A DNA stretch of 64,000 nucleotides from Topomyia yanbarensis. Taxonomy: Eukaryota; Arthropoda; Insecta; Diptera; Culicidae. Within the stretch, counting starts at the first letter, position 1. Each line of letters starts with the position of its first letter. The notes beneath the pieces were generated by a model. The model saw only the letters and a program-made list of their open reading frames with translations, ran no database searches and was not told where the DNA came from. Shown here one piece after another: positions 44,323 through 60,594 of this stretch. The translations under genes were made by a program, and so were the position numbers. The DNA lies in assembly GCF_030247195.1 (NCBI RefSeq), contig NC_080671.1, forward strand, positions 88,348,370 through 88,412,369. Reading direction: 5' to 3'.

Positions 44323-45828
44323 CTAATTACATCTAAAAAACTGCAGGAATCGATTTCTCAATGATATTCGAGACAAATGAAAGTCGAACAAGTGCGACAC
44401 ACGATTGAAGAGGCGTTGTAGTCCCGTGATAGCGGCATTAGCTGTTTGAATAGTTCGTCGAAACGGCACTCTCAGAAGAACGTTTCCGCGTAACGTTCTG
44501 GACCTTGCTTGGATGTTAACTCGCTCTAGTAAATCTGGAGAATCGATGCGTCCTGACAGAAGATCAGAGATGAATAAGGCTCTTGCAGTTTCTCTACGAC
44601 GCTGGAGAGTATCGAGCTGGATGAGTTGACACCGACTCTCGTAGCTTGGTAGACGAACAGGATCGCGCCAAGGCAGGCGTCGAAGAGCATACCGTATAAA
44701 TTTTCGTTGAACGCCTTCAATTCGATCGCTGCTGTTCATGTAATTCGGGTTCCAGACCGCCGAACAATACTCCAGCGTAGAGCGCACTAAAGAGCAGTAT
44801 AGGCTTTTGAGACAGTAAATGTCTGTAAAGGATTTAGCCGTACGGAAAATGAAGCCCAGGCTTCGCGATGCTTTACCAACAACATACGAAATGTGATTCT
44901 TAAATGTAAGTTTCGAATCTAACAGCACTCCAAGATCCTTAACGCAGCTCACCCGGGAAACAAGAGCTCCAGACAAGTTATATTCAAACTCAATAGGATC
45001 TTTTTTTCTGGTGAACGATATCACAGAACATTTCGCCGGATTCAGAATCATTCGGTTGTTTTCACACCATCTGCTGAAAGTGTCGAATTGCTGCTGCAAA
45101 TATTGTGCGTCCGATCGGCTCCTAATTCTGTTGAAAATTTTTAGATCATCTGCATACGACAACCGTGGTCCTTTCAGCTGATAGTTTACATCGTTGAAAT
45201 AGAGAGTGAATATTAATGGACCGAGATGACTTCCTTGCGGAATACCAGTCGTTGCGGAGAACAGTTTGGAGTATGCATCACCTATGTTCACACTGAGTTG
45301 ACGGCCAACGAGATAGGATTGAAACCATCGCAGGAGTGATCCACTGAAGCCAAGTTTTTCCAATTTAGCGACTGCGATATCGTGATTGATTTTGTCGAAA
45401 GCTGCAGATAAGTCAGTATATATAACATCAGTTTGTTGATTCGCATCAAACCCTTCGGACACAAAAGAGGTTAGAGATAGTAGATTCGTCGACGTAGATC
45501 GATTCGGCATGAATCCGTGTTGGTCTTTAGAAATATATTCCTTACAGTGAAAAAACACTGACTCCACCACGACTAACTCAAAGAGCTTGGAAATGGCACA
45601 GAGCGCAGATATTCCTCGATAATTGTCAATGTTTCTCTTATCACCTTTTTTGTGGACAGGAAAGATGAAAGCTGCTTTCCACAATTGAGGAAAAATCGCG
45701 GTTGTCAGTGACATTTTGAATAGTTGACAGAGAGGTTCCACCAAACCAGATATACACTTTTTCAAAAACACAGCAGGGACACCATCTGGCCCAGGAGATG
45801 ACGATGCTTTAAGCTTGGATAGCAGCAT
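44323..45828 (-). CDS. LINE reverse transcriptase (partial ORF2)
   Basis: 501 uninterrupted codons. Motif 0/1 region: SSSPGPDGVPAVFLKK (10-24), FIFPVHKKGD (55-63). Motifs: NYRGISAL (69-76), DQHGFMPNRST (102-112), TDLSAAFDKINH with the catalytic Asp at about 139, GIPQGSHLGP (195-204), YADD at 225-228 (the two catalytic Asp), and ILNPAKCSVISF (261-272). The C-terminal domain (LEYCSAVWNP) follows, and it ends without RNase H. It copies element RNA at nicked chromosomal DNA. The true N-terminus is lost. Upstream codons (VSEIHVEHSDI) lie in another frame, so a single-base shift near 45830 breaks ORF2. The jockey/CR1-like group is likely, clade uncertain. Confidence 0.88.
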   Translation of the reverse strand: MLLSKLKASSSPGPDGVPAVFLKKCISGLVEPLCQLFKMSLTTAIFPQLWKAAFIFPVHKKGDKRNIDNYRGISALCAISKLFELVVVESVFFHCKEYISKDQHGFMPNRSTSTNLLSLTSFVSEGFDANQQTDVIYTDLSAAFDKINHDIAVAKLEKLGFSGSLLRWFQSYLVGRQLSVNIGDAYSKLFSATTGIPQGSHLGPLIFTLYFNDVNYQLKGPRLSYADDLKIFNRIRSRSDAQYLQQQFDTFSRWCENNRMILNPAKCSVISFTRKKDPIEFEYNLSGALVSRVSCVKDLGVLLDSKLTFKNHISYVVGKASRSLGFIFRTAKSFTDIYCLKSLYCSLVRSTLEYCSAVWNPNYMNSSDRIEGVQRKFIRYALRRLPWRDPVRLPSYESRCQLIQLDTLQRRRETARALFISDLLSGRIDSPDLLERVNIQARSRTLRGNVLLRVPFRRTIQTANAAITGLQRLFNRVSHLFDFHLSRISLRNRFLQFFRCN

Positions 45829-45829
45829 C

Positions 45830-45925
45830 CAATATCCGAGTGCTCCACATGAATCTCACTCACTGACCGTTCGAGTTGGGCCACGCCGCTAGCTGCAACG
45901 TCAATCTGCTGCGAGACTGCATTGT
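45830..45925 (-). pseudogene. Frame-shifted upstream piece of LINE ORF2
   Basis: The minus-strand frame ending near 45830 gives AVSQQIDVAASGVAQLERSV then SEIHVEHSDI. This fits the linker just before motif 0 in LINE ORF2 and continues into the 501-codon frame only after a one-base shift. It confirms that the downstream frame is a truncated and shifted remnant. Confidence 0.6.
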
Positions 45926-46175: not shown

Positions 46176-48194
46176 AGTGTGTATCTTCGTCGCTAGCGGT
46201 TGACTCTCGTAGAGCTCCCTTCGAGTCGGTTAATTTTCATCATTTTTGGCACAATTTACTGTCTCCCGGTTATGAAAAGTGTTAATAACGGTGCAATTTA
46301 ACAATTATACAAAGTGAAGTGGTTTATAAAAGCATTTTTCGGCATATTTTCGACAGATGCGAGTGGTGACAGTTTGTGAAAATCGAATTCCGGCAAAAAG
46401 AAAAAAAAAAACTTTTCCTCGCATTACGGGCCGTCGATTCCCGATGCAAGGACAATAAAAGTGTACAGAAAGCATCTAGAAACACAGTGTACATTGTAAA
46501 AATAGTGAAAAATGGTTTTTCAAAGAAAAAAATTCGATCCGAAAAGTGAAAAAATATGGCAATAAGAAAAATTGACATTCAAATAATTGACGTTTCACCA
46601 GCGACTAGCGACTACCAGGTGTCGCCCAAAATTCTTCGCCCGAAAAATAGGTGGCAAACCAGCCGGTCGGTGCTCAGCTAATTTCGTCCGCGTCCCTTGT
46701 CACCTATTTTTTATTGAGTGTTTCATCGGCGGTGCTATCTTTGAAAATGAGCCGCCTTGGATATTCAACTGTTTTTTTACTGTATTATTTTATATTCGGG
46801 ATTGCAGATATTTTGTCGCATGTTAATTTTGGGTGTTCGTTGATGTGATGGCGCTGTAAGGGAACACGTATTTGCCGGTCGGCAAACTTTTCTTTGGACT
46901 GAGCAAACTAATTTTTATGTTTCATTAGGGTTTGTTTTACCAACGGGGGAACTGATTCACAGAGCATTCAATGTGCTTAGAGAAAACACATGGCCTTATT
47001 TGAGTGGAATGATGACTTCAATCATGTATAAGGTTTGAGTATTGACAATTCGCGAGAGGGATCGGGGACCGGTTGGCAATTACCTTCAGTAATGTCAGCA
47101 CGAAGAATAAGTGTTTTGCTGTCATTTTCATTGCTTAGTTTTCTATTCTATCGCATGCCTCCACGCGAGTCTAAGTCTATTGATGACATTAGGTCCTTAG
47201 ACCGGCGACGACTGGGAGCTATCAGCCTTCTGCCGATAATAGCAGAATGAGAGTATGCGATATAGCCGAGAAAACAATACCGTAAAAGTTGTTCGGAAAT
47301 CAGCGCCAATAAGACTTTAATTTGACTAGTATCGATGATCGCGGGTCAATACGTACTGAAAATTCGCCGCGTCTGTTTTAATGAATCTAATTTCAAGTTC
47401 CGTTATTGATAACAAGCCCGTGCATCAGGTTAACGATCCTCTGTATTTCCCTTCAATGTTCGATATAATCGTTCGTATACGTGTATTTCACAAACAATCC
47501 GTTATTAGAAAGAGGAAATACTTTCGTTGATTTATAACATCTAGAGCTATCATAACTCTCTATCTGTATAACGTTTTATCACTCGGTAGTTTGCAACCCA
47601 AAAAATATATCGTAGAGAAGGAATAGCGAAATTAGTCTAAATAATGTCGCAATAAATAGTGATCCGGCCCATTACACAGATAAGATTAGCTTTGCTACGC
47701 AATACTCCCACGATCTGCTGTGTGGATGTGAAATTGCTTTTGTTTAGAAAACATAGGATACTCTCGGTAGATCTTATTTTTCGAGCGATCGTGTTCTCGA
47801 AAACTAACTGAACTACTACCTAATAAACTATGCTGTACAGATCGCATCGCTTGCTTGTAGCGAATCCTAGACCTTATTCCCTTCCAAACCACCAACTCCG
47901 CGATACCTGTGGAAGATTCTGATGAACCTTCTGTATAAGATTCCTCATTTTATTCAAACGATCGCCGGGTAAAATCAGCATCGACACGATAGAAACCACG
48001 AAAAAATTCGTTGTGTGATTGAATATTATTAAAAAATATAAGCAGTGCTCCTTATAGCCGGCTATCCGGAGTTCAAGGTGCTTATTATGCTAATCGTATT
48101 AATACAACAAATGATGAATTTTCCAAATTCTCGGCAGCCGGCTGCCCAGATCAATTATTATATGATAACGCTATTGGCACACTTACTAACAACT
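46176..48194. other. No gene recognised; possible host or TE leader
   Basis: The first 450 bases (AGTGAAAA-type text, GTGAAAAATGG near 46507) resemble an arthropod 5' leader, but the ATG opens only 17 codons. From 46.6 to 48.2 kb the sequence is moderately GC-rich and not obviously repeated within the window. No domain could be recognised. Confidence 0.4.
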
Positions 48195-48375
48195 CTCCCC
48201 ATCCCGTGATGCATGTGGAGATGCGGAGGATTCCTCGGTCTCTAGTAGCAACATGTATCGGACTAACATTCCTTCCTTTCCCAGAAGATCTGCATTCGGA
48301 TGTGGCCGGCGTCGGTATTGATCAGCATGCAGGGATCAGAATAGATTATACAATGTGGCTCATCATGTTATTCCC
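48195..48375 (+). repeat. Fragment of the tRNA-headed retroposon seen at 59.2-60.6 kb
   Basis: CCCGTGAT, GGTCTCTAGTAGCAA, GTATCGGACTAACATTCCTT and GGCCGGCGTCGGTATTGATC are colinear with the reverse complement of about 59325-59450 (GTATCGGACTAACCATTCCT and GGCCGGCGCCGGTATTGATC). It is an older, internal-only piece on the opposite strand. Confidence 0.75.
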
Positions 48376-48449
48376 AAGCATGCTGTTCCAATGAACATTT
48401 TGCAACCTAATTTGGTTCTGGTCAATAACGGAGTAGCAACTACGGGCGA

Positions 48450-59132: not shown

Positions 59133-59692
59133 GTTGGCACTATTTACTACGGGTAAGGATGTTCATGAAATTAGAGCTTGAGCTTGTGCGACCACCCCTG
59201 GCTGCTACTCCCTTATCGATCGGGACTAGCTGAAGTTGCACAGGGAATCAGTAGATAATTATGCTTGGGAGTAGCGAAACATCTTTCAATGTGCAACTCC
59301 TGGTAAACCTAAAGTGTTTTTGATCAATACCGGCGCCGGCCAGGCCCGAACGTAGATCGCGGAAGGAAAAGGAAGGAATGGTTAGTCCGATACTTGCTTT
59401 TGCTAGAGGCCGTATATACTACTGCGCACTCCACGAATATCACGGGAGGAGGATATTTTTGTTAGTAAGAGTATAGAAGTTGGATCTACTTCTTCTTTAC
59501 CAACGCCATTGAGGCGATTCCACCACCTTGACTAGATATCGATCCACCAATTTCATGGACCGGGGTCCAACGGCTTTACTTCCCTTCCGAAGGAAGACGT
59601 GACTACAGATTTTTTCACCTCAACGACCTCGGCTGGAATTGAACCCAGGCCAACTGGAATGAGTGGCGGTCACGCTTACCACTCAACCGCCG

Positions 59693-59731
59693 CACAGTGA
59701 TCACCTTCCATGCAAAAGTCGGACAAAACCT
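59693..59731 (+). promoter_or_regulatory. 23-spacer recombination-signal-like end
   Basis: Heptamer CACAGTG (59693-59699), a 23-nt spacer (59700-59722), then nonamer ACAAAACCT (59723-59731). The heptamer is identical to the vertebrate RSS consensus. The nonamer matches ACAAAAACC at 7 of 9 positions without gaps. This is presumed to be the transposase binding and cleavage site. Confidence 0.8.
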
Positions 59732-60530
59732 CAAAAGTGGCCCGTATTTGATGAAAACCTAACATTGAATAATTTTGTGACGCTGAATTCATATTTCATG
59801 TTTATTTTTCTGTTTTTTTAAATCCTCAAAATTTTGGCGCTTAGGGTGGTTCGAAAATTCAACATTTACGAATATAAAGTGCACTATTTGCTAAAATTCA
59901 TTTTAAAAAAATTAGGCGCGGTGAATTTTTTAGCAGAATACGCATTTCTTCAACTGTTGATAATGATATGACACATCTATAAATTATATTGCGAACCCTG
60001 GGTAGTCAAAGGCTTCCATGCGTCTCCTTCAGACGTATCATGAAAAATCACCTTTTTTAATACCTCGGGGCAGAAAGAGGCAAAACATGATACTCATTTT
60101 CGGAAAGTACACTAATTTTCAAGTATAATGAACAACCAGCGATCTTTCCGAACCGTTTCAAAAAAAAGTACAGTCATTTTGAACATTATAACTTTAAACT
60201 ATTGCTCGATTTATTATTTGTTTTTCATGTCTGAGCGAGAAGAAAGGCTTGTATCGACTAAATCGAATGGCAGCTATAAGTCCAGCGAATAACCTTTCAA
60301 ATGAAATCAGTTTGACCCCAATCGGAATCTTAACTAAAAAGATATATTCATTTGAATAATTTAGGTTTGAAAAGAGTTTTCCTTAGAATTCATCATCTAT
60401 TTCACCTTTGAAGTTCTGTAAAAAAATTGAACTCTCGTCTTCGGTACTTAATATTTTGAGAAGACACTATTCAACCTGTTAAGAAATAGAGAAAAATGTT
60501 AAATCACGAAAAATCTAAAATAAAATTTTG

Positions 60531-60558
60531 AGGTTTTGTCCGGCTAGGCGACACTGTG
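60531..60558 (-). promoter_or_regulatory. 12-spacer recombination-signal-like end
   Basis: Read inward on the minus strand: heptamer CACAGTG (60552-60558), a 12-nt spacer (60540-60551), then nonamer ACAAAACCT (60531-60539). It is the same nonamer as the left end, but with the spacer shorter by 11 nt, about one helical turn. Confidence 0.8.
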
Positions 60559-60594
60559 CGCCGGCGCCGTCATAGGGATGTTCATGAAATTAGA

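Follow-up and report, generated by a model that had tools for sequence, protein, structure and literature searches.

A non-autonomous Transib-type element with 12/23 ends and its relatives in the genome of Topomyia yanbarensis

Introduction

A stretch of Topomyia yanbarensis DNA (contig NC_080671.1, forward strand, positions 88,348,370 to 88,412,369), 64,000 nucleotides long and hereafter called the window, holds a mobile element whose two ends look like vertebrate RSSs, one with a 23-nt and one with a 12-nt spacer. The locus raises the question of how such asymmetric ends arose, what kind of enzyme moves them and whether they obey a pairing rule. According to excerpts of one account, a Transib with 12/23 ends was proposed to have seeded the split antigen receptor gene (PMC8355894). 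If a transposase were to enforce 12/23 pairing without RAG2, the 12/23 rule would be older than V(D)J recombination or of separate origin.

Architecture of the element

A letter-by-letter check of the window sequence delimits an element of 866 bp at 59693-60558 (plus strand), assigned to a family called M1, with CGCCG on either flank. These target site duplications (59688-59692 and 60559-60563, plus strand) are both included in the interval 59688-60563 given by a first-pass annotation, the element proper being 59693-60558. On the plus strand, the left end reads as a CACAGTG heptamer (59693-59699), a 23-nt spacer (59700-59722) and the nonamer ACAAAACCT (59723-59731); on the minus strand, the right end reads as the same heptamer (60552-60558), a 12-nt spacer (60540-60551) and again the nonamer ACAAAACCT (60531-60539). 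The exact 12/23 layout with CGCCG duplications described by that annotation was confirmed letter for letter. Because the nonamer is part of a longer stretch of 17 nt, CGGACAAAACCTCAAAA, which is identical and inverted at both element ends, the sequence itself dictates that the spacers differ by 11 nt; the absolute values of 12 and 23 depend on the alignment to the RSS nonamer ACAAAAACC, with 7/9 positions matching, a register that was the best among those compared by eye.

Several traits place M1 among the Transibs. Its terminal inverted repeats start with a CAC heptamer, CACAGTG at both ends, its 5-bp duplication is CGNCG-like, and heptamer and nonamer are separated by about 12 nt at one end and about 23 nt at the other (38/40 copies). 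The frames of the element are short, the longest wholly internal one counting 62 aa, so that it encodes no transposase and is non-autonomous; two inner frames scanned against Pfam gave no transposase-type match. The earlier proposal of a non-autonomous Transib-type element is supported by these ends, duplications and short frames. CGNCG, the duplication consensus of M1, is also the one listed for Transib in excerpts of PMC5704228.

Might the layout be a chance resemblance at one locus? Single RSS-like sites do arise in this way, as exemplified by seven RSS-like loci in viral contigs (spacers of 12 nt in three, two of them with the same sequence, 23 nt in one, 24 nt in two and 19 nt in one), which were taken as chance since none continues like the M1 element. 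In the window, a scan allowing at most one heptamer mismatch, at most two nonamer mismatches and spacers of 8-29 nt returned seven matches, and a spacer of 12 or 23 nt was present only at the two element ends. There are also seven generic CAC...GTG pairs with identical 5-mers, extended inverted ends being seen by eye only in the M1 element, and 30 shuffles of the window yielded 0 to 6 such generic pairs. Across 200 dinucleotide shuffles, the 68 inverted CACAGTG pairs included none with an identical flanking 5-mer and none with an identical 9-mer placed at 12/23; the analytic expectation of the M1 end layout in the window is about 8e-9. In the whole host assembly (1.168 Gb in 1044 contigs, three of them of 470, 429 and 218 Mb), the heptamer followed after 9-30 nt by the nonamer occurs 2912 times as against 31 for the reversed control, and the exact CACAGTG-12-ACAAAACCT occurs 654 times as against 0. 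On the shuffles, the 40 scored copies and these end counts, a chance origin is so improbable that it was rejected.

Outside the host, no copy of a 20-nt left-end piece of M1 was found in viral contigs, the both-end pattern was absent from prokaryote genome contigs, and the element had no match in plasmids and four short ones at E 0.9 in phages.

Copies in the host genome

A DNA search of the host genome with M1 provided 1837 candidates, of which 40 were scored, chosen as those most similar to the query and hence not a random sample. Besides the window copy, they comprise 39 near full-length copies with 93-96% identity to it. Spacers of 23/12 nt were found in 38/40 of these best-scoring copies, the left spacer measuring 23 nt and the right one 12 nt in 39/40 each. 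The exceptions are L037, scored 25/12 and damaged at its left end, and L038, scored 23/11, where the alignment of the 34 distinct insertions puts the lost base in the nonamer and not in the spacer. The nonamer was exact at the left end of 40/40 copies and at the right end of 38/40, and the heptamer in 38/40 and 35/40, respectively. Four of the five right-heptamer exceptions have common flanks and read CATAGTG; these copies (L021, L023, L027 and L051), distributed over three large contigs, apparently represent one M1 insertion carried along by another repeat.

The 5-bp duplications are identical at 5/5 positions in 35 copies, at 4/5 in three and at fewer in two. Six copies were dropped for flanks in common with another copy (L020, L023, L027, L036, L044 and L051), leaving 34 distinct insertions. 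Identical duplications flank 30 of them, with base counts of C20 G21 N C27 G23, hence the consensus CGNCG, which the CGCCG of the window copy fits. The tabulation of copies called for by the first-pass annotation thus bore out its description of heptamer, nonamer, spacers and duplications. The mean divergence from the M1 consensus is 2.5%; with 3.47%, the window copy ranks among those farthest from it.

Within the 34 copies, substitutions amount to 594/22597 (2.6%) in the interior, 11/782 (1.4%) in the left spacer and 1/408 in the right spacer; the nonamers present 0/306 at the left and 1/305 at the right, together 1/611. The left heptamer, with 5/238 (2.1%), is not below the interior on raw count, five being the number of mismatches found in L034 and L037, the two copies with a damaged left end, and the right heptamer has 2/238. 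No excess conservation over the interior is seen in the 21 nt internal to the right nonamer (27/713, 3.8%). The nonamers and the right spacer of M1 are thus held more tightly than the rest of the element. Indel events numbered one in the left spacer, none in the right spacer, one in the right nonamer and 26 in the interior, a rate too low for testing a constraint on spacer length. What these counts show is a sequence constraint on the ends of M1, which is not the same as a pairing rule.

Related families and pairing of ends

The ends of M1 can be aligned over 86-99 nt, at 72-76% identity, with those of a second family, M2. In the two M2 copies L095 and L097, of 866 bp, the left end reads CACAGTG-23-ACAAAACCT, the right end CACAGTG-12-CCAAAACCT and the duplication CGCCG; L096 has M2 ends with flanks TGGCG/CGGCG. 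Two M2 relatives read by eye are 23/12 with CGCTG on both sides (L093) and 24/12 with CAGCG on both sides (L094). A third family, M3, of which one copy was read (L092, C1:1390021-1392010), is nearly palindromic, 1.97 kb long and 22/22, with the heptamer and nonamer of M1 and a CGCCA duplication. The existence of a 22/22 element with these signals speaks against an asymmetry imposed by the signals alone.

The pairing of ends takes in only those with exact heptamer and nonamer and was read from the first 100 of the 2912 occurrences, which cover the first 51 Mb of contig C1. Their spacers measure 23 nt in 63 cases, 12 nt in 23, 22 nt in 11, and 19, 24 and 27 nt in one each. Convergent pairs within 7 kb are 12/23 in 17 cases, 22/22 in four and 12/24 in one. 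The first-pass annotation had asked whether copies ever have 12/12 or 23/23 ends: none with the M1 signals was seen among these 22 pairs, one of which is spurious, but symmetric pairs with the same signals do occur, namely the four 22/22 ones. Among 100 of the 654 twelve-nt ends, reading revealed no convergent pair nearer than about 8.5 kb.

The spurious one of the 17 12/23 pairs, L091, spans 5.2 kb and was considered as an autonomous partner and rejected; it has no transposase match, and its flanks (CGGTG versus CGACG) led us to take it as unrelated insertions.

Transib transposases of the host

A six-frame search of the genome with the RAG1 Pfam model gave eight places at E <=0.1, 0/8 being above the cut-off, and at the protein level 2/5 frames tested exceeded it. 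A frame of 389 aa matched structure 6pqn at E 2.4e-63 and RAG1 chains at E 2.3e-6 to 2.3e-4. We take 6pqn to be HzTransib, the structure table naming a DNA-mediated transposase. Three transposase families, A1, A2 and B, were examined. Family A1, to which the 389-aa frame belongs as a part of the transposase (the upstream part being in other frames), is about 4.2 kb long, with symmetric ends identical over 45 nt and AATTTTTAC at the place of the nonamer. Its four complete copies have the duplications CAATG, CAGTG, CAGTG and CAATG and correspond to three insertions, as L064 and L069 have 10 kb in common. In the 20 loci L071-L090, two of which (L071 and L072) coincide with L063 and L064, 18 contain exact A1 ends, 19 in all, which are flanked by CATTG in nine cases, CAGTG in four, CACTG in three, CAATG in two and CGATG in one. 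When 106 of 1257 candidates for the 389-aa frame were scored, these best matches showed 99-100% identity in 106/106 and no stop in 105/106, a near-identity that speaks for a recent spread.

For a Transib, A1 (L063, L064 and L069-L090, target CANTG) presents unusually many near-identical copies. Autonomous Transibs are typically found as single or at most few copies, according to excerpts of PMC4411706.

In A2 (L065 and L066), either end reads CACAGTG-23-ACAAAAACA, a symmetric 23/23 arrangement with a CAATG duplication and a nonamer matching the RSS consensus at 8/9 positions; the two copies read both have broken frames. B (L067 and L068) has long symmetric ends, CACAGTGGTCAAAATG, with one right end cut short and one left flank CGTTG. 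The best named relatives of one host transposase are among Toxorhynchites, Aedes and Culex, and the same holds for the reverse transcriptase and a second frame of the window.

Could one of these families move M1? All share the CACAGTG heptamer with it, the CACAGTG-23-ACAAAAACA ends of A2 resemble its left end, A1 looks recently amplified, and the single CGTTG flank of B points the same way. However, A1 and A2 duplicate CANTG, as against CGNCG in M1 and M2, A1 has AATTTTTAC where the nonamer should stand, none of the three carries ACAAAACCT ends, and a blast of the M1 element against L063-L070 gave matches of 15 to 24 nt only, all in the M1 interior. We therefore regard A1, A2 or B as an unlikely mover, and no transposase combining ACAAAACCT ends with CGNCG duplications was found among these three families. 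Of the earlier suggestion that an active or recently active Transib transposase acts on 12/23 ends, one part stood, since Transib transposases are present in the genome and many near-identical frames belong to one of their families; the part concerning the ends was not borne out by the families examined, A1, A2 and B all being symmetric-ended and A1 and A2 duplicating CANTG.

Origin of the asymmetric ends

M1 is very probably a MITE, a non-autonomous DNA transposon of the cut-and-paste type, present in high copy number and belonging to the Transib superfamily. A Transib transposase would move it in trans, and its 12/23 asymmetry would go back to a common ancestor of M1 and M2 and have been kept for competence to move. 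The supplied transposase would bind heptamer and nonamer at each M1 end, nick beside the heptamer and hairpin the flanks, so that M1 would be excised and then inserted at CGNCG targets through cuts staggered by 5 bp; the window copy went into the tRNA-like head of a SINE that was already in place. Nicking and hairpin formation at the heptamer are known from the biochemistry of Transib and RAG. The biochemistry behind this mechanism is also treated in excerpts of PMC8355894 and PMC8289069. The driver would be a Transib enzyme with a preference for ACAAAACCT-type 12/23 ends, and the asymmetry, once fixed in the common ancestor of M1 and M2, would have been kept in both because their ends must stay competent to move.

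The layout may instead be merely inherited, M1 and M2 descending from one founder whose ends differed by chance by 11 nt and the transposase being indifferent to this difference. We consider such descent fairly probable. The alignable ends of M1 and M2 may mean one founder, symmetric 22/22 M3 and 23/23 A2 coexist with them, and L094, with identical duplications, is 24/12; in addition, a single long gap allows a weak alignment between the two spacers of the window copy, the score being reached by 0.7% of 3000 shuffles with CGG and by 11% without. On the contrary, the scarcity of substitutions in the right spacer and nonamers relative to the interior indicates a constraint on the ends, though not a pairing rule, and neither 12/12 nor 23/23 was met among the 22 convergent pairs, the spurious one included.

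A stronger proposal is that 12/23 pairing is a true rule imposed in the absence of RAG2 by a Transib transposase of the host, which would have M1 and M2 as its substrates, with the right spacer and both nonamers kept almost unchanged and mispaired elements failing to spread. This we hold to be rather unlikely. The lack of 12/12 and 23/23 in a small paired sample is equally compatible with a rule and with descent. One genome brings together M1 and M2 (23/12), M3 (22/22), A2 (23/23, with an almost canonical nonamer) and A1 (young-looking, high-copy and with a transposase), and so offers both enzymes and substrates, in a natural setting, that bear on the importance of unequal spacers for a Transib transposase.

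Comparison with known systems

The vertebrate RSS and M1 have an identical CACAGTG heptamer and similarly spacers of 12 and 23 nt, and the M1 nonamer matches 7/9 positions of the RSS consensus ACAAAAACC as given in excerpts of PMC8289069; unlike the RSS cut by RAG1-RAG2, M1 is a mobile element with target duplications. ProtoRAG also has a CAC heptamer, a 5-bp duplication and asymmetric ends, but its spacers are 27/31 and it carries a different TR5 element (PMC8355894 and PMC8289069, both in excerpt). The protostome RAGL end consensus, CACTWMCAAAC... in the available part of PMC7204232, is not matched by the M1 ends, CACAGTGATCAC and CACAGTGTCGCC. The transposase of HzTransib (Helicoverpa zea) is homologous to those of the host genome (6pqn, above), and its ends, unlike those of M1, are symmetric with little nonamer similarity (PMC8289069, in excerpt).

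Symmetric ends prevail among Transib families according to a portion of PMC8289069, and excerpts of PMC9435367 describe all Subgroup I Transibs as having asymmetric ends and Subgroup II as having both kinds. Neotropical anophelines and those of New Guinea were reported to lack Transib (PMC7728395, in excerpt).

The closest parallels to M1 are Transib families with published 12/23 ends. The listed 12/23 ends are reportedly owed to Kapitonov and Jurka (2005), and the N families of An. gambiae are presumably non-autonomous. Spacers of 12 or 23 +/- 1 nt are listed in excerpts of PMC8355894 for Transib5 of D. melanogaster and for Transib2, N1, N2 and N3 of An. gambiae, which, like M1, have an RSS-like heptamer and nonamer with about 12 nt at one end and about 23 nt at the other. 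Compared with them, the host genome shows exactly 23/12 in 38/40 M1 copies, more than one such family and, alongside, families in which these signals are arranged symmetrically. Transib ends of the 12/23 kind are thus already in print, and M1 with its genome is a rich further instance, with hundreds of matching ends. No paper on the families described here was found in a search of open-licence papers judged by titles and the beginnings of abstracts.

Surroundings of the window copy

The window copy of M1 is nested in the tRNA-like head of a minus-strand SINE-like repeat. The larger part of this repeat, with the head that holds M1, occupies 59176-59692, and the first bases of the head beyond the insertion are at 60564-60575 (both minus strand). 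Its target site duplications of 19 nt, GGATGTTCATGAAATTAGA, lie at 59157-59175 and 60576-60594 (plus strand) and are identical at 19/19 positions. Once M1 and one CGCCG are removed, the SINE head becomes continuous; therefore the SINE was inserted first and M1 later. The head contains GGTTCAATTCC, which we take as a box-B-like motif, the tRNA-like reading resting on such box motifs; ARAGORN predicted no tRNA genes in the window. A second, headless SINE piece is present at 48179-48446, 74% alike over 153 nt, and the SINE pieces had no match in viral contigs or phages.

The window opens with 105 perfect copies of the 7-mer CCAAAAA (1-738), followed by a degenerate TACGAAC array (770-1024). A telomeric reading of the CCAAAAA array was rejected, the window being located at 88.3 Mb of the 470-Mb contig and not at its end.

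With regard to coding content, 126 frames in the window reach 74 aa or more; 109 of them, along with two smaller frames inside M1, were scanned against Pfam. These 111 frames gave five weak matches, with E 0.01 for the best, and neither RAG1 nor Transib was among them, a mostly frame-broken relic being expected to escape such a scan. The 17 remaining frames are 16 of low complexity and a reverse transcriptase scanned separately. In that separate scan, which also covered one 341-aa frame and nine others, the reverse transcriptase was the only match; its frame of 510 aa (44323-45855, minus strand) has its nearest named relatives in mosquitoes.
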